A stretch of DNA of 64,000 nucleotides from an uncultured Thermofilaceae archaeon (GCA_938036345.1 CALHPJ010000015.1:1-64000); one strand, 5' to 3'; shown: positions 56,034-64,000, numbered from the stretch's first letter. Notes: a model not told the origin generated them from the letters alone. Numbers and translations: made by a program.

Positions 56034-58079
56034 ATGAAGAGCAAGCTGAGGCCCTACCAACGCGAAGCCCTCGACTGGGCCCTGAGAGTGGCAGAAGCCC
56101 GCGGCGGTGCCGTAGTTTGCTTGCCAACCGGTACAGGTAAAACCCTTGTCGCAGTCTCCTTCGCGGAGCACTACTTGCGCAGCCTCCGAAGCGGTGAGAA
56201 AATACTGGTGCTAGAGCCCACACGCTTCCTAGTCGAGCAAACCGCGAAAAGGTTCAGGTACGAGGGGTTCTCCGTCTCAATGATCCACTCCGGCGTTAAG
56301 GAGCGCGACTGGAGCCAGAGTATCGTGGTCGCAACACCTGAATCGGCTCTAAGCTACCTCGACCGCAAGTACGGCAGGCTGCAGTGGGAGAAAGCCCGCG
56401 AGCTAGCCTCCAGGGAGTTCCCCGTAGTGGTTATCGACGAGTGCCACCACACGGTAGGTAAGGACCCGTTCGCCGTGATCATGAACCTCCTTTCCGGCTC
56501 AATCAAGCTCGGCCTTTCGGCCCTAGTGCCTTCAAGTAGGATCGGTGAGATTGAAGAGTACATAGGGGTTATACGCAAGTGGAGCTTCAGCGAGCTGGAG
56601 GGGAAGGGTTACGAGAAACCCTACATGATCGCGGAGGTGTACGAGTCCCCCTTCAGGCGGCAGGAGGAGGAACTCTACGCGAAGCTGTACAACCTGTGGT
56701 TGAGCGGAGGCCCCTCTTCCAACTTCGCCGCTTTAGCATTAACCACGCTTAGTAGAGACGGCAGCGACGCGCTCATTGATTCAGCGGCCAAGCCGACAGC
56801 GTTCGCGCGCTTCCTCAGCGAGGTCGCACCGGTTCTCGATCTACCGCGGGAATCCCATAAGTTGCCGGTGCTCCAAAGCATCCTGAGGGATTACGAAGGG
56901 AACTACGCCAAGGCCCTTGTATTCGTTAACAGGAGATGCACAGCCGAGCTTATAGCGGAGAACTTTGCGCATTTGAAACCGGTTAAAATCATCGGCGGAA
57001 GGGAGGCGGCCGACCCGGAGGCTAGGAGAAGCCTCCTGGAGGAGGCGAGGAAGCCCGAGGTCAAGTTGATCATCGCCACTTCAGCGGGGGACGAGGGCAT
57101 CGACGTGCCGGAGGTCGACCTAGTAGTTTTCTGGTCGCACGTCTCCTCGCCCCTACGCCTGTACCAGAGACTCGGTAGAGCGCTTCGCCCGGCCCCGGGT
57201 AGAGTAAAGTACGCCGTCTTCGTTGTAACCCCCGGTACCCGAGACTACGACGCGCTACCGGAAAGCCTCGTAGCGCTGGCCAGAGAGGGGATAGACGTGT
57301 CCGGCATCTTCGACGACGTGGAGTCGCCTATTCTGGGGGAGGGGATGGTCATGGCTAGGAGAGTGAGGGAAGTTTCCCAAACGCTTGGCGTTAAGGGTTT
57401 GCACCGGGAAACGCTCTTGAGTGCGCTGAGCTCAGGTCAGTGGGCGCAGAGGGCTAAGCGGAGAATCGCCGCCGAACTGGACGAGAGCGTCAAGATGGGT
57501 GCGCTTCTGTACTACTACGACGTAGGGGAATTGTACTCCGAGATCCAGAGCTGGGTCGAGTCCGGCGTTAGTGAGCTGTACCTGAGGCTGGAGCCCTCTC
57601 ACAGGAGGTACTTAACCGTCGAGGAGGCAGAAGAGGCGGCTAGAAACTATCCTGAAAACTTTCTCGATGGACGGCTCTGCTTCGATCCATTCGACGATTT
57701 GAGGGTGAAGGGGGCCAGCAAGGAAAGCGTCAATTCGCTAGTCATTAGCTTCGTTAAGCTGTTGTCCTCCGGGGCTAAGGCTACGCAGCTGGCCGGGGTT
57801 TTCTCTACGCTCGCCGAGGAGTGTCCGACCGCCGTAGTTAAGTGGAGAATCAGGTTGAGCGAAGCGTTGTTCCCCGTGAACGGTAGGGTTCTCCGGCTCT
57901 CCGTCACCGCGGAGTACGGCCCCTACATGGTTCGCAACGTGAGACAAATTGCCTTGTCTATGCGAAACGCCGCTGCCATATGGAACCTCATCACCCAGCT
58001 GGTGAGCGGCTCTGAGGGGGTAGGCTACTGTGACAGGCTTCTCAGGGCTTCCGGGAGCGTAAATATAAACCCAAGTTAA
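56034..58079 (+). CDS. Superfamily 2 DExH helicase, Hef/FANCM-like
   Basis: 681 residues. N-terminal RecA core: 'LRPYQREALDWALRV' (Q motif), Walker A 'LPTGTGKTLVAV', 'VLEPTRFLVEQTAKRF', 'MIHSGVKERDWSQSIVVATPESALSYL', DECHH Walker B, 'LGLSALVPSS' (motif III position). An insert of about 150 residues precedes the second core: 'KALVFVNRRCTAELIAENF', 'IIATSAGDEGIDVPEVDLVVFW', 'LRLYQRLGRALRPAPGR'. The DECHH form and helical insert are like archaeal Hef and eukaryotic FANCM. No XPF-type nuclease domain is at the C-terminus; residues 440-681 are unassigned. Probably remodels branched DNA at stalled forks. Confidence 0.82.
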   Translation: MKSKLRPYQREALDWALRVAEARGGAVVCLPTGTGKTLVAVSFAEHYLRSLRSGEKILVLEPTRFLVEQTAKRFRYEGFSVSMIHSGVKERDWSQSIVVATPESALSYLDRKYGRLQWEKARELASREFPVVVIDECHHTVGKDPFAVIMNLLSGSIKLGLSALVPSSRIGEIEEYIGVIRKWSFSELEGKGYEKPYMIAEVYESPFRRQEEELYAKLYNLWLSGGPSSNFAALALTTLSRDGSDALIDSAAKPTAFARFLSEVAPVLDLPRESHKLPVLQSILRDYEGNYAKALVFVNRRCTAELIAENFAHLKPVKIIGGREAADPEARRSLLEEARKPEVKLIIATSAGDEGIDVPEVDLVVFWSHVSSPLRLYQRLGRALRPAPGRVKYAVFVVTPGTRDYDALPESLVALAREGIDVSGIFDDVESPILGEGMVMARRVREVSQTLGVKGLHRETLLSALSSGQWAQRAKRRIAAELDESVKMGALLYYYDVGELYSEIQSWVESGVSELYLRLEPSHRRYLTVEEAEEAARNYPENFLDGRLCFDPFDDLRVKGASKESVNSLVISFVKLLSSGAKATQLAGVFSTLAEECPTAVVKWRIRLSEALFPVNGRVLRLSVTAEYGPYMVRNVRQIALSMRNAAAIWNLITQLVSGSEGVGYCDRLLRASGSVNINPS

Positions 58080-59162: not shown

Positions 59163-60914
59163 GTGATTAAGGAGGTAATCCTGGAGAACTTCATGTCGTA
59201 CAGGTATGCTAGGATACCGCTTTCTCCGGGCATCAACATCATCACGGGGCCCAATGGGTCGGGTAAGTCAAGCATACTCCTGGGCATAGCCGTGGCGCTC
59301 GGCCAGACGTACACCGAGCGCGGTAGGAGGCTGAGCGATCTAATCAGAAGGGGGGAGGAGGTAGCCAGGGTCACCGTGGTCTTCGACAACAGGCCATCTG
59401 ATGGCCGCAGGCCGTTCCCTCAGTTCAGGAGCGACGACGTATTCTTCACGAGGTACGTCAGGTCGGACGGCGAGTACTGGCATGAAGTTAACGGGAGGCC
59501 GGTTTCCAAGCTTGAGGTGCGGAGGTATCTTTCCAGCGTGGGGCTCGACCCGGACAACGCGCTGATAATCATGCACCAGAGCATGGTGGAGGAGTTCGCC
59601 TTTGTAACGCCGGAGGAGAGGCTGCAGCTACTGGAGGGCGCTGTCGGGCTTAAGGGCTACAGGGATCGGGTTCTCTCAGCCATCAAAATGTTGGAGTCCA
59701 TCGGCAGGGAGGAGGCGGAGGTTAAGGAGACTTTAGAGAGAGCTCGCGACGCGCTCAGTCGCTGGAGTGAGCTTTACGAGAAGTACAAGGCAAGGAGGGA
59801 GCTTGAGGGGAAGCTGGCTAAGCTGAACGCGGAGCTGGCATGGGCCCGGGTGCGGGACGCGGCTGCGGAGCTGAGCGACGTGGAGGCCGCGATGGGGGAG
59901 CTGGAGAGGGAGCTGCAGGGTATCGAGGAGGAGATCGGCAAACTGAGAGTTAAGGAGGGGGAAGTCAGGGAGTTGATCGAGAGAGGGGAGGGGGACATCC
60001 TGAGGGGGGCGATCGAGCTTAGAGAGGGGTTGAGAAGGCTCAGGGGCCTCTGGGGCGAGCTCGTTGAGCTGGTATCGAGCACTAGAGTTAAGGAGTTCGA
60101 GAAAAGGCTTATCCTCACCGAGCTGGAGGGGTTGAAGGTTAAGCGCCGCCGACTTGCCGAGAGGGTTGAGGCGCTTAGGGCGAAGGCAATCGAAGCGGGG
60201 GAGGAGGTTTCGACCAACCGGGCTATTGAGGAGATCGAGGAGGAGGTTAGAAGGGTTGAGCTGGAGATAGCGGCTCTAGGCTCTGTACCGGTGGAGGTCG
60301 AGGAGGTTTACTCGAAGTACAGGGAGTCCTACGAAGACCTGCTTAGAAGACTCGAGGAGCTGGAGGCCAACAAGAAGAAGCTTTCCGAGGAGCTCGAGAA
60401 GAGGGTCGGCATATGGAGGGAGAAGATCGAGGCGGTGGTCTCGGACGTGGACGCCACTTTCAGGAAAATGCTCGAGAGCGTGGGTGCCTCGGGGGGCGTG
60501 CGGTTAGTGTACGAGCATGGGGTGGAGAAAGCCGGCTTGGAGATTCAGGCGGGTTTCGGTGAAGCTAAACCCGTTCCCTTCAACCCCCTAGCCTTGAGCG
60601 GAGGCGAGAGAACAACAGTTATTATGTGCTTTTTCCTAGCTTTGCAAAACCACGTTAAATCCCCTCTGAGGGCCATCGACGAGTTCGACGTACACATGGA
60701 CCCGCGCAACAGGGATGCCGTGCTGGCGATGATATTCGAGCTCGCCTCCGCGAACCCGGGTACACAGTACGTGGTGATCACCCCGGGGCTGCTAACCAGG
60801 TTGCCTCAAGGCGCCAACGTGATAATAGCGCAAAAAGTTAAGGGTAGGTCGCTGGTATCCGTTGCTAAGGTGCCCGGCGGTGTCGGCGGAGGAAAGGCTG
60901 AGAGAGCTGCTTAG
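59163..60914 (+). CDS. Compact SMC-like ATPase with very short coiled coil
   Basis: 583 residues. N-terminal head: 'VIKEVILENFMSYRYARIPLSPGINIITGPNGSGKSS' (Walker A 29-36), 'YTERGRRLSDLIRRGEEVARVTVVF', 'IIMHQSMVEEF' (Q-loop) and 'LLEGAVGLKGYRDRV' (SMC D-box neighbourhood). Coiled coil about 158-430 in two arms, too short for the usual hinge and with no CxxC zinc hook, so not Rad50. C-terminal head: 'VEEVYSKYRESYEDLLRRLEEL', signature LSGGERT (478-484), Walker B 'LRAIDEFDVHMD'. The 'GQTYTERGRRLSDLIR' form resembles Smc5/6 more than condensin. GTG 59163 sits about 27 bp after 'agataac'. It overlaps the next gene by 35 bp. Confidence 0.75.
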   Translation: MIKEVILENFMSYRYARIPLSPGINIITGPNGSGKSSILLGIAVALGQTYTERGRRLSDLIRRGEEVARVTVVFDNRPSDGRRPFPQFRSDDVFFTRYVRSDGEYWHEVNGRPVSKLEVRRYLSSVGLDPDNALIIMHQSMVEEFAFVTPEERLQLLEGAVGLKGYRDRVLSAIKMLESIGREEAEVKETLERARDALSRWSELYEKYKARRELEGKLAKLNAELAWARVRDAAAELSDVEAAMGELERELQGIEEEIGKLRVKEGEVRELIERGEGDILRGAIELREGLRRLRGLWGELVELVSSTRVKEFEKRLILTELEGLKVKRRRLAERVEALRAKAIEAGEEVSTNRAIEEIEEEVRRVELEIAALGSVPVEVEEVYSKYRESYEDLLRRLEELEANKKKLSEELEKRVGIWREKIEAVVSDVDATFRKMLESVGASGGVRLVYEHGVEKAGLEIQAGFGEAKPVPFNPLALSGGERTTVIMCFFLALQNHVKSPLRAIDEFDVHMDPRNRDAVLAMIFELASANPGTQYVVITPGLLTRLPQGANVIIAQKVKGRSLVSVAKVPGGVGGGKAERAA

Positions 60915-61620
60915 CGAGCTCGTAGAAACAGTTAAGGCCTCGCCAGACCCCTTCAAGGTGAGAGTACGCGAGTTTCTAGAGGAGCTAGCGAGACTTTTAC
61001 CGCGGGCAGATCTGGAGGGGCTTCAGCTGGACGCGGAGGTGCTCTACAGGCTTGCCGAGGTTGTCCAGAGGCAGGAAAAGTGGCTCGTAAGTGAGGCTAC
61101 CGCGTTCGCTTTGGGTAGGTTCCTGGCGGCGCTCAAGGTGCGCGTCCTCAGCGAAAGCGAGCTCGCGGAGGGGCTTCTCGAGGCCTGGAGGCCCATCGTC
61201 GAGCTCGAGCAGGTCACTTACGCGGAGATCTTAAGGGCGTTCGAGTACGTGGAGGGTAGCAGGAAGTTCGCGCTTGAGCCAGAGGAGGAGCCCGCTAAGT
61301 TGCTGAGCTTCGATGATGTAGCTGGGCTGGGGGTTCTCTCAGAGAGGGAGTTCGCGGAGCTGCTAGAGGAGGTAAGGGAGAAACTGAACAGTTTGATAAG
61401 CGGGCGGGACGTAGTCAAGTACAGCGAGGCCGTGAGGGGGGGAGATTTCTACGAGACGTACGTGCGGGCTTACGCCCTCTCTTACCTTTCAACTTTAGGC
61501 GAATTCGACGTAGTGTACGACCCCTTCAGCGACGAGTTTTACGTAGCGAGAGCCGGAGCAGAGGGGGAGTTCTCATCCGTTGCTATACACCTGGGAAAGG
61601 TCGTTGGCAATGCCGGCTAG
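60880..61620 (+). CDS. Unrecognised protein encoded with the SMC-like ATPase (kleisin-like candidate)
   Basis: 246 residues, mainly helical and acidic. It has an N-terminal helical bundle ('SAEERLRELLSELVETVKASPDPFKVRVREFLEELARLLP'), a central 'LLEAWRPIVELEQVTYAEILRAFEYVEGSRKF' and an alpha/beta C-terminus ('ETYVRAYALSYLSTLGEFDVVYDPFSDEFYV'). No motif assigns it to a known family. GTG 60880 lies inside the SMC-like gene and its stop at 61620 lies inside the next gene, so the three are translationally coupled. Between an SMC and a winged-helix gene, the position is that of a kleisin in smc-scpA-scpB operons; this is an analogy from context only. Confidence 0.6.
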   Translation: MSAEERLRELLSELVETVKASPDPFKVRVREFLEELARLLPRADLEGLQLDAEVLYRLAEVVQRQEKWLVSEATAFALGRFLAALKVRVLSESELAEGLLEAWRPIVELEQVTYAEILRAFEYVEGSRKFALEPEEEPAKLLSFDDVAGLGVLSEREFAELLEEVREKLNSLISGRDVVKYSEAVRGGDFYETYVRAYALSYLSTLGEFDVVYDPFSDEFYVARAGAEGEFSSVAIHLGKVVGNAG

Positions 61621-62194
61621 AGTTCCCTCAGAAAAGCTGAGGAGGGCGGCGAAGCTGCTGCTGTACAGAAGTAGGGCGAAGCCGGGGGTGCGCGGCTGGG
61701 AGCTGGCCAAGCTCGTCGGCAAGGATTACCTGGATGTCGTGAAGGCCTTGAACACCCTCCTCGACACCCTGGGCCTCGAGGTGATCGCTATCGACGACGA
61801 AGGTAAGAGGCTGAAGCTCGAGGGCGACCCGCGCAGCGCCCTTTTCCTAGTCGTGTTAAAGGAGCCTCTAACCCTCCAGGAGGCAAGGAGTGTTGGCTGG
61901 CGAGTAGACGATTTAGCGGTGCTGTCCGCCTCTCTGCTTTACCTACTCGCTAAAGGCGGTAAAGCCCCGCGGGGCGATCTTGTAAACATGCTGAAAGCCA
62001 AGTTCCGCGGACCGAGGCTCAGCTACGCACTGGACAGGCTCTTCAGGCTCGGCTACCTCGAGGAGGAGGACGAGCAGGTGAAAATCGGCTGGCGGTCGAG
62101 AGTAGAGGTTAACCTCGACAAGCTCGTGGGCTTCAGCGGGCTCCCGAGCGGCGGGCAAGCCCCTCGAGAGAGCTCCGAATCCTCTCCTTCCTAG
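61610..62194 (+). CDS. Winged-helix protein encoded with the SMC-like ATPase (ScpB/KITE-like candidate)
   Basis: 194 residues with two winged-helix-like units: residues 5-75 ('SEKLRRAAKLLLYRSRAKPGVRGWELAKLVGKDYLDVVKALNTLLDTLGLEVIAID') and 100-175 ('LSASLLYLLAKGGKAPRGDLVNMLKAKFRGPRLSYALDRLFRLGYLEEEDEQVKIG'). Tandem winged helices are the architecture of ScpB, MukE and Nse1/Nse3 (KITE) subunits of SMC complexes. The Ser/Pro-rich tail may be disordered. ATG 61610 overlaps the preceding gene by 11 bp; its 3' end overlaps the convergent lhr gene by 62 bp. Confidence 0.65.
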   Translation: MPARVPSEKLRRAAKLLLYRSRAKPGVRGWELAKLVGKDYLDVVKALNTLLDTLGLEVIAIDDEGKRLKLEGDPRSALFLVVLKEPLTLQEARSVGWRVDDLAVLSASLLYLLAKGGKAPRGDLVNMLKAKFRGPRLSYALDRLFRLGYLEEEDEQVKIGWRSRVEVNLDKLVGFSGLPSGGQAPRESSESSPS

Positions 62195-64000
62195 CGACCC
62201 ATATGGCTTTGAAAAGCGCTTCCCTATCCCCTCTAAAGCCTGAAAGCAGCTTCCCAATCTCTCTGAAGCTTAGGCCAGCCGCCCTGGCCAAGACGCCGTA
62301 GCTTTTGAAGTTCCGCAGGATTTCGACGCTTGCCCAGAAGGACCTGCAGCCCCGCCCCCTCCTAGCCTTTAAGCACCTGCTAGCCTTAGCCGCTATCTCC
62401 TCCTCAGACACGGTATCGAATGCCAGCTCGCCCGAGCCGCAGTGAGGGCACTCGATATCTCTCTCGAGCTCTGCGATGGGGCGCTCGAACACCGCTCCAC
62501 ACTCTACGCAGCAGAAGGCGGCAAAGGACTGCAGGAGCTTGGCCTTGAATAGCGCATAGGATAGGAGCTCTCTCCTCTCCGGCAGAGACGGCTCCAAACC
62601 CTCTCTAAGCGTTCTCTCGCTCTCCACGGCCAGCGGTGTAGGCCCCTTAACCGCCGCTATCGCAATCCCCCCCTTTGCCACCTCGGATACCACCCTCAAG
62701 GCGTTGTCAATGTCCAGATCCTTCTGCATGACCTCCTTTAGGGCCTCCTCATACACAGGGGTGTCCTTCAGCGCGGCCGCGATTCTATCCAGGTCGCCTC
62801 GTGTCAACCTGGCATCCGGAGCTATCACGCCCATCCTCCTGGCAACCTGCTGCAGCCTCCATCTGAAGGCTCTGCTATCCTCTACGGCCGCCCTGAGGTT
62901 TCTTACGAAATCCTCCTCGCTGACCTCCTTCAGCGCGCGTGCAACCTCCTCTGCCCCGATGCCCTCGCACCTGACGACTATCCTGTAGGGTTTCTCGGAC
63001 GAGTAGACGGGGATGCCGACCCTGCGTGCTAGCTTGTACGCCAGGTACTTCCCCAAAGCCCTGTTCACCCTATTGCCGAAGTGCGCATGCACAACCACCA
63101 TCCCCTCCTTCACCTCTTCAACAAGTATCAGCTTGTCGCTGGGCACGGGGAATCCCTTAATCGCGGTCTCGTACACGGGTCTCAGCGCCTTCTCGAAAAC
63201 TCTTGGGCTCACCCCGTAATCGCCAGCCAGCTGCTCCGCCAGGTCCCTAAGCGGGACGCCTTGAAGAGCCTTCTCGCCAGCGAGGCCCCTGAGCTGCCCA
63301 ACCTCCCTGGCCACCTCTATGGGGACCGGTATCTCCTCGCCTACCCAGCTGGGAATAGCGCTGCTGTAATCGTCGACTGGCTCAACGTACACGGCATCCT
63401 CCGACAGCAATACCACCTCCCACGGCCTACCGGCGACTATGAAGCGGGCTCCGACCTCGCAGTACTCCGAGACGAAGTAGTCGTCCAGGATCCCTACCGG
63501 GTCCCCGGTGGACCGGTCTATCACATAGTACTGCTTTACGTCGGGTATCGTTGAGAGAGCTGAGAAAAAGTACTCGTAGCTCCTCCTGCCCGCTGGTCTT
63601 AACCGCCCACCGGCAGTTCGCAGCAGGCCGATGCTTTCCATGAACTCGATAACCCGCTTCAGCTCCTCGAACTCAAGGCTCCTGAACGGCTCCGAGGAGG
63701 TTGCGATTTCATAGGCCTCGTCCATGGTCACCGAGTCAGAGATCGCCAAGCCAACCAGCTCGTGCGCCAGCACGTCCAGCGGCTTTGAGGGCGCTTGGGA
63801 CGGCTCCACCAGCTCCTTCTCCAGTCTGGCCTTCAGCACTATGCTTTCGAGCGCGTCGTCGCTATCACCGACAACGATCACGCCGTGGCTTAGCTTGTCC
63901 AGGCTGTGCCCTGCTCTGCCAACCCTCTGAACAAGCCTCCGAACCTCGTGCGGCGAGTTGTACTGGACCACCAGGTCCACGTAGCCTATGTCTATCCCCA
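62133..64000 (-). CDS. lhr: Lhr-type large helicase, C-terminal two thirds (5' end outside window)
   Basis: About 621 residues are visible. The first ones, 'GIDIGYVDLVVQYNSPHEVRRLVQRVGRAGHS', are helicase motifs V and VI in the Lhr form, so the motor's first RecA domain lies beyond 64000. Then come winged-helix and Lhr-core regions ('DEAYEIATSSEPFRSLEFEELKRVIEFMESIGLL', 'DRSTGDPVGILDDYFVSEYCEVGARFIVAGRPWEVV', 'LVEEVKEGMVVVHAHFGNRVNRALGKYLA') and a C-terminal zinc ribbon 'CVECGAVFERPIAELERDIECPHCGS'. Lhr unwinds branched DNA and RNA:DNA hybrids with 3'-5' polarity and is linked to repair. Convergent and overlapping with the winged-helix gene. Confidence 0.92.
   Translation of the reverse strand, partial: GIDIGYVDLVVQYNSPHEVRRLVQRVGRAGHSLDKLSHGVIVVGDSDDALESIVLKARLEKELVEPSQAPSKPLDVLAHELVGLAISDSVTMDEAYEIATSSEPFRSLEFEELKRVIEFMESIGLLRTAGGRLRPAGRRSYEYFFSALSTIPDVKQYYVIDRSTGDPVGILDDYFVSEYCEVGARFIVAGRPWEVVLLSEDAVYVEPVDDYSSAIPSWVGEEIPVPIEVAREVGQLRGLAGEKALQGVPLRDLAEQLAGDYGVSPRVFEKALRPVYETAIKGFPVPSDKLILVEEVKEGMVVVHAHFGNRVNRALGKYLAYKLARRVGIPVYSSEKPYRIVVRCEGIGAEEVARALKEVSEEDFVRNLRAAVEDSRAFRWRLQQVARRMGVIAPDARLTRGDLDRIAAALKDTPVYEEALKEVMQKDLDIDNALRVVSEVAKGGIAIAAVKGPTPLAVESERTLREGLEPSLPERRELLSYALFKAKLLQSFAAFCCVECGAVFERPIAELERDIECPHCGSGELAFDTVSEEEIAAKASRCLKARRGRGCRSFWASVEILRNFKSYGVLARAAGLSFREIGKLLSGFRGDREALFKAIWVARKERIRSSLEGLARRSGAR

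Follow-up and report, generated by a model that had tools for sequence, protein, structure and literature searches.

A hinge-less SMC, a kleisin and a probable kite in archaea: a likely operon of the Smc5/6 type

Introduction

The eukaryotic Smc5/6 complex contains Smc5, Smc6, Nse4, Nse1 and Nse3. SMC complexes share a general scheme: two heads are engaged by ATP, a kleisin connects neck and cap, and kites are seated on the kleisin. Here we consider three overlapping genes of an uncultured Thermofilaceae archaeon, located in a stretch of 64,000 nucleotides (GCA_938036345.1, CALHPJ010000015.1:1-64000; the whole stretch is referred to as the window). Very probably, they form an operon encoding an archaeal SMC–kleisin–kite complex of the Smc5/6 type, with a hinge-less SMC, presumably a homodimer, and a DNA clamp at the level of the heads.

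The features shared with eukaryotic Smc5/6 are the head signature (QSGGER, DEFDVxMD and ITP), the Nse4_C-type kleisin and, probably, the Nse1/MAGE-type kite. However, where the eukaryotic complex has two SMC and two kite genes, the archaeal operon has a single gene of either kind; its SMC has no hinge and has arms of about 117–154 residues, and genes for Nse2, Nse5, Nse6 or RING proteins are absent from the operon. The canonical archaeal and bacterial SMC–ScpA–ScpB system has the same SMC–kleisin–kite order and an SMC fold with a similar joint-like break of the arm, but its SMC is about 1180 aa long, with a Pfam hinge and condensin-type heads, and its partners belong to the ScpA and ScpB families. 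The 'hinge-less' oceanic actinobacterial SMC also consists of heads and a coiled coil, with no hinge or CxxC hook; unlike the protein considered here, it is a bacterial variant from ocean metagenomes, with no partners described, and is not related to Smc5/6 (PMC12153180).

Crenarchaeal-type archaea have been described as lacking SMC complexes (PMC7055376, PMC12153180). According to the latter paper (2025), Thermoproteota have no SMC complexes, and duplication of a prokaryotic SMC would be a first. At the same time, an 'SMC5/6-related' archaeal SMC (Yoshinaga and Inagaki 2021) is named, as SMC phylogeny work, in the accessible part of PMC9389158. This protein probably shares the head family with the one described below; in the accessible parts of the literature searched, no description of its kleisin, its kite or the absence of a hinge was found.

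Organization of the operon

The reading frames bear out the three overlapping genes of the first-pass annotation, with overlaps of 35 and 11 bp:

59163..60914 (+): hinge-less Smc5/6-type SMC ATPase (P0001), 583 aa, GTG start; profile best to SMC5/SMC6
60880..61620 (+): Nse4-type kleisin, gene 2 (P0002), 246 aa
61610..62194 (+): probable Nse1/Nse3(MAGE)-type kite, gene 3 (P0003), 194 aa
60880..60914 (+): overlap of the SMC and kleisin reading frames, 35 bp
61610..61620 (+): overlap of the kleisin and kite reading frames, 11 bp

The SMC ATPase has no hinge

The ATPase (hereafter mini-SMC) matches Pfam SMC_N at 5.2e-33. The motifs noted at first (Walker A G29–S37, LSGGE 478–482, Walker B D506–E507) are indeed present, and the Q-loop glutamine Q139 can be added to them; Walker A, the Q-loop, SGGE and the D-E pair are invariant across 63 aligned members of the family. 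The structural model was built by AlphaFold2 on the 63-row alignment and has mean pLDDT of 88.5. The following features were mapped:

59247..59273 (+): Walker A GPNGSGKSS, residues 29–37; K35 and S36 invariant in 63/63
59577..59579 (+): Q-loop Gln139, invariant
59652..60002 (+): N-terminal arm helix, residues 164–280, predicted by the AlphaFold model
60003..60017 (+): arm tip, 5-residue hairpin turn 281–285 at the hinge position, from the AlphaFold model and the family alignment; relatives insert up to about 55 residues
60018..60479 (+): C-terminal arm, residues 286–439, predicted by the AlphaFold model, with joint-like breaks at 346–354 and 373–378
60594..60608 (+): ABC signature LSGGE, residues 478–482; family consensus QSGGER, as in yeast Smc5
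60666..60704 (+): Walker B and D-loop region LRAIDEFDVHMDP, residues 502–514; DEFDVxMD is common to SMC6, and the MDxRN stretch is common to SMC5
60777..60785 (+): Smc5/6-like ITP motif, residues 539–541; ITL or ISL in the canonical SMCs of the phylum

The model comprises an SMC head, the helix 164–280, the turn 281–285 and the returning arm 286–439, whose breaks resemble the SMC joint. The stretch between the heads is short, as had been claimed: about 276 residues (164–439), nearly all of them modelled as coiled coil, with the estimated arm length of about 17 nm; across the 63 members it varies between 242 and 341 residues. Neither is there room for a hinge, the model having only the 5-residue turn in its place, nor is a CxxC motif seen between the heads in any of the aligned members (0/63). 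SMC_hinge (PF06470) is not among the matches listed for the 63 members (25 most frequent Pfam families), while the same search finds it in two canonical SMCs at 1e-20 to 1e-23. The scores against TIGR02169 and TIGR02168 are 191 and 149 bits at cut-offs 729 and 567, respectively, that is, the protein fails as a canonical SMC. In the Foldseek comparison, the best match of the model is 5xei (4e-27), a structure of Pyrococcus Smc that includes the head, coiled coil and the joint. As modelled, the ATPase is a true SMC without a hinge or hook.

In the Bathyarchaeia and other lineages, up to about 55 residues are added exactly at the hairpin tip (P0001 residue 284); by eye, these insertions look helical. 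They could yield longer arms or a small tip domain.

It might be suggested that the protein is a repair ATPase similar to Rad50, RecN or ASRP (coalescin ClsN, Sph), and that its accessory proteins are merely kleisin- and kite-like. Indeed, ASRPs are short archaeal SMC-superfamily ATPases of about 600 aa, the size of mini-SMC is near that of the ASRP model (593 positions), and there are weak matches to ASRP (NF045487, 75.6 bits) and Rad50 (72.3 bits); however, the cut-offs are 300 and 700, so that the ASRP score in particular is far too low. Further, judging by the accessible part of PMC9389158, most ASRPs have a zinc hook and their genes have no conserved neighbours, whereas here the hook is seen in 0/63 members and there are two near-obligate partners. 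The first-pass annotation had regarded a placement in RecN- or RecF-like families as incompatible with its reading; the best 50 Foldseek matches are SMC chains except two Rad50 chains, and neither RecN nor RecF is among them. Finally, the genome from which the window comes encodes separate arcadin-4-like and Rad50-like proteins. We consider this explanation largely refuted and extremely improbable.

The heads are closest to SMC5 and SMC6

When the profile of the ATPase family (A1) is compared with all PDB sequences, SMC5 and SMC6 come on top with 205–236 bits, followed by Pyrococcus Smc (183), SMC2 (158–164), SMC3 (108–137), SMC1 (72–133) and SMC4 (109–123). For the control profile, built from canonical SMCs of the same phylum, the order is reversed: SMC1–4 reach 339 bits, and SMC5 has about 60. 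The Smc5/6 signal is located in the C-head, which prefers SMC5/6 when taken alone. The diagnostic residues agree: the family consensus is QSGGER (Q in 44/63) and DEFDVHMDPxNR, and ITP is present in 62/63 members.

The head tree separates the mini-SMC family, yeast SMC5 and human SMC6 from the canonical SMCs and human SMC2 with support 100/97, and the short SMC of the Hadarchaeota falls on the canonical side. In an earlier tree with arcadin-4- and Rad50-like outgroups, the group of mini-SMC, SMC5 and SMC6 had support of only 87/52; that tree was weakened by long branches and mis-trimmed N-termini, and the final one was made without these outgroups. Judged by sequence, the closest relatives of the ATPase are SMC5 and SMC6.

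Gene 2 is an Nse4-type kleisin

The second gene had been described as encoding a helical protein of unknown family. The helical N-terminal domain is confirmed, but the family can now be named. Pfam Nse4_C is found in 38/64 members of the gene-2 family (best 5.6e-9). In the comparison of the family profile with PDB, the first places are taken by yeast Nse4 and by human EID3, which is a paralogue of NSE4 (6e-5 to 2e-4), with ScpA next. In the model (pLDDT 85), the N-terminal domain is helical and includes a helix of 45 residues; a linker modelled with low confidence connects it to a winged helix at the C-terminus. Kleisins account for all of the nine best fold matches of this model, with Nse4 in first place. 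Hence, by sequence and predicted fold, gene 2 is a kleisin of the Nse4 type. Its domains are as follows:

60880..61257 (+): N-terminal helical domain, residues 1–126, with the 45-residue helix 45–89, from the AlphaFold model; predicted to bind the SMC neck by analogy with other kleisins
61258..61308 (+): low-confidence linker, residues 127–143, pLDDT 45–68; putative kite-binding stretch
61342..61551 (+): C-terminal winged helix, residues 155–224, expected to bind the SMC head cap; matches the ScpA C-WHD of 4i99 (2.5 A, TM 0.78)

Gene 3 is a probable kite

The two most frequent Pfam matches in the gene-3 family are SMC_Nse1 (nine members, best 6.5e-4) and MAGE (six members, best 2e-5). The best PDB profile match, a designed repeat protein aside, is human Nse1. 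One region was delineated from the alignment:

61901..62104 (+): second winged-helix region of the kite, residues about 98–165, predicted from sequence; it ends in a GWRxRxE motif, aligned with GRAILEME of Nse1

The original description of the product as a tandem winged-helix protein is consistent with these matches. Gene 3 probably encodes a kite of the Nse1/Nse3 type.

Conservation and co-occurrence of the three genes

Homologues similar in length to the ATPase (median ORF 590 aa) were collected in 80 loci from the Thermofilales and other Thermoprotei, Methanomethylicota, Bathyarchaeota, Nitrososphaeria (including Caldarchaeum-type lineages), Geothermarchaeota and Hadarchaeota. Gene 2 is present in 76/80 loci, and so is gene 3 (76/80); usually gene 2 starts a few bases from the SMC stop. 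Thus the triplet, expected from the first-pass annotation in related genomes, is conserved well beyond the Thermofilales.

The genome survey covered 299 Thermoproteota genomes with completeness of at least 85%. The SMC was found in 121, the kleisin in 120 and the kite in 119 genomes, and the three sets are fully nested: neither partner is seen without mini-SMC. The differences between the counts are due to G090, where the SMC match itself is partial, and G170, where the kleisin match runs into a contig end. All three are kept even in several genomes where the SMC gene lies apart from its partners or on another contig. At locus L142, the kleisin and the kite are separated by other genes, and the triplet is nonetheless complete. 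In the Hadarchaeota, the family is present in 21/28 genomes.

Canonical SMC occurs in 123 of the 299 genomes; 52 have both kinds, 69 only mini-SMC and 71 only canonical SMC. It was not found in the genome to which the window belongs. The 69 genomes qualify the claim that Thermoproteota have no SMC complexes, and the 52 genomes qualify the statement (PMC12153180) that a duplicated SMC would be unprecedented in prokaryotes.

One might also think of an SMC system of defence or of mobile elements, similar to Wadjet or Lamassu, since PADLOC gives mads_3 and LmuB among the ATPase matches of the SMC. However, defence models yield no match to gene 2 or gene 3, and the operon contains no nuclease gene. 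There is no match in phage and plasmid records and no close match among viral contigs. Moreover, mini-SMC is present in a single copy per genome in 63/131 genera, and its lineage-wise distribution suggests vertical inheritance. Such an origin of the operon seems most improbable.

Smc5/6-type complex or an offshoot of the canonical one

The initial suggestion, according to which the ATPase and its two partners make up a reduced complex, possibly akin to Smc5/6, is supported, and most of the refuting conditions set out with it turned out in its favour. The affinity to Smc5/6 is seen independently in all three proteins and is least firm for gene 3. Several observations weigh against this assignment. 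The N-head alone cannot tell SMC5 from SMC2 (62 vs 65 bits). The tree sample contains only a few, long-branched eukaryotic sequences, and the AU test (p 0.10–0.30) does not separate SMC5 and SMC6 being sisters of the archaeal group from their nesting within it. The fold matches of the kleisin have E-values of only about 1e-3. The E-values of the kite are modest as well, because of which it is graded as probable only, and hhalign of the kite with ScpB gives no match (probability 4.5). Lastly, the interface, stoichiometry and activity are all putative.

Hence one has to consider the possibility that the operon is a reduced offshoot of the canonical archaeal SMC–ScpA–ScpB of the condensin type, which lost its hinge and is not specifically related to Smc5/6. 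The equal closeness of the N-head to SMC2 would agree with that, as would the order of the smc, kleisin and kite genes, the same as in the canonical operons of the phylum, the match of the kleisin to ScpA of the same phylum (hhalign 95% over the C-terminal half), and the fact that the canonical SMC of the Hadarchaeota did lose its hinge. On the other hand, the Hadarchaeal short SMC is on the canonical side of the 100/97 split, the profile rankings of mini-SMC and canonical SMC are inverted, the partners match Nse4_C and Nse1/MAGE rather than ScpA and ScpB, and the two SMC kinds co-occur in 52/299 genomes. Overall, such an offshoot is unlikely. We assign the complex to the Smc5/6 type by the kinship of the SMC and the kleisin, and probably of the kite; strictly speaking, however, it is no Smc5/6 complex, since the hinge and the heterodimer are absent.

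Proposed mechanism

None of the catalytic residues and none of the three subunit types is missing, hence the same head–kleisin–kite clamp is expected, and at the heads the complex probably works like Smc5/6. The SMC and the kite would each form a homodimer. ATP would bring both SMC heads together, the kleisin would bridge them, bound to one head at the neck and to the other at the cap, and the kite dimer would be seated on the kleisin linker. DNA would be held in this clamp and let go upon hydrolysis. Having no hinge, the arms cannot meet at their tips to complete the large ring usual for SMC complexes; therefore an open-armed DNA clamp or a short-step translocase is expected. Engineered hinge-less subcomplexes of yeast Smc5 and Smc6 still engage their heads with ATP (PMC8327961).

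By analogy with its relatives, the complex most likely has a role in DNA repair, at the fork or in chromosome maintenance; loop extrusion and repair, proposed in the first-pass annotation, may be among its functions. In genomes lacking canonical SMC, it would be the only SMC–kleisin complex known. Tentatively, it may be an archaeal Smc5/6 from before the duplications, with a single kleisin and with homodimers of the SMC and of the kite; in many archaea it would serve, free of the hinge, as the main SMC complex or the only one. If this somewhat doubtful conjecture holds, ATP-dependent gripping of DNA, and perhaps translocation or loop extrusion, needs neither a hinge nor a closed SMC ring.

The operon, which combines the three types of core subunit, is thus a plausible counterpart of Smc5/6 in archaea. 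A set kept together across many archaea could reveal the origin of Smc5/6 and the purpose of the hinge, usually regarded as essential for such machines. As mini-SMC and the Hadarchaeal SMC–ScpAB are natural hinge deletions, the need for a hinge and ring closure in DNA capture and loop extrusion becomes directly testable. Since the Hadarchaeal short SMC groups with canonical SMCs, archaea have lost the hinge on at least two occasions, unless one of the families descends from an ancestor that never had it. The Hadarchaeal canonical smc-scpA-scpB operons (L231:663-4122, L230:3-3317) encode SMCs of 760–775 aa with no Pfam hinge, and ordinary ScpA and ScpB. Another Hadarchaeal genome, G315, has an SMC frame of 1144 aa.

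Neighbouring genes and other SMC-superfamily proteins

The gene convergent with the kite gene and located just downstream of it (window 62133-63980, minus strand) encodes a large Lhr-type helicase. It is found beside the triplet in 45/80 loci, a mild hint of a function in repair or chromosome maintenance. Two genes upstream of the SMC gene (window 56034-58079, plus strand), there is a 681-aa SF2 helicase (ResIII/Helicase_C), for which the nearest NCBIfam model is Hef, far below the cut-off.

A conserved protein of about 230 aa, having no Pfam or NCBIfam match, is encoded near the SMC gene in 39/80 loci, mostly upstream and on the opposite strand (e.g. L142:11516-12202, minus strand); it is not seen near the triplet of the window. 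At the same locus, the genes between the kleisin and the kite (L142:2065-3691) are two genes of, by eye, pilin/archaellin-like membrane-anchored proteins. The apparent kleisin–kite fusion of 397 aa in L071:1790-2983 is an artefact, as a run of N bridges both frames.

One more SMC-superfamily protein, of 801 aa and with a CPVC hook, is encoded in G000:C17 (L139:1045-3450); its best match is arcadin-4 with 287.6 bits at the cut-off of 860.

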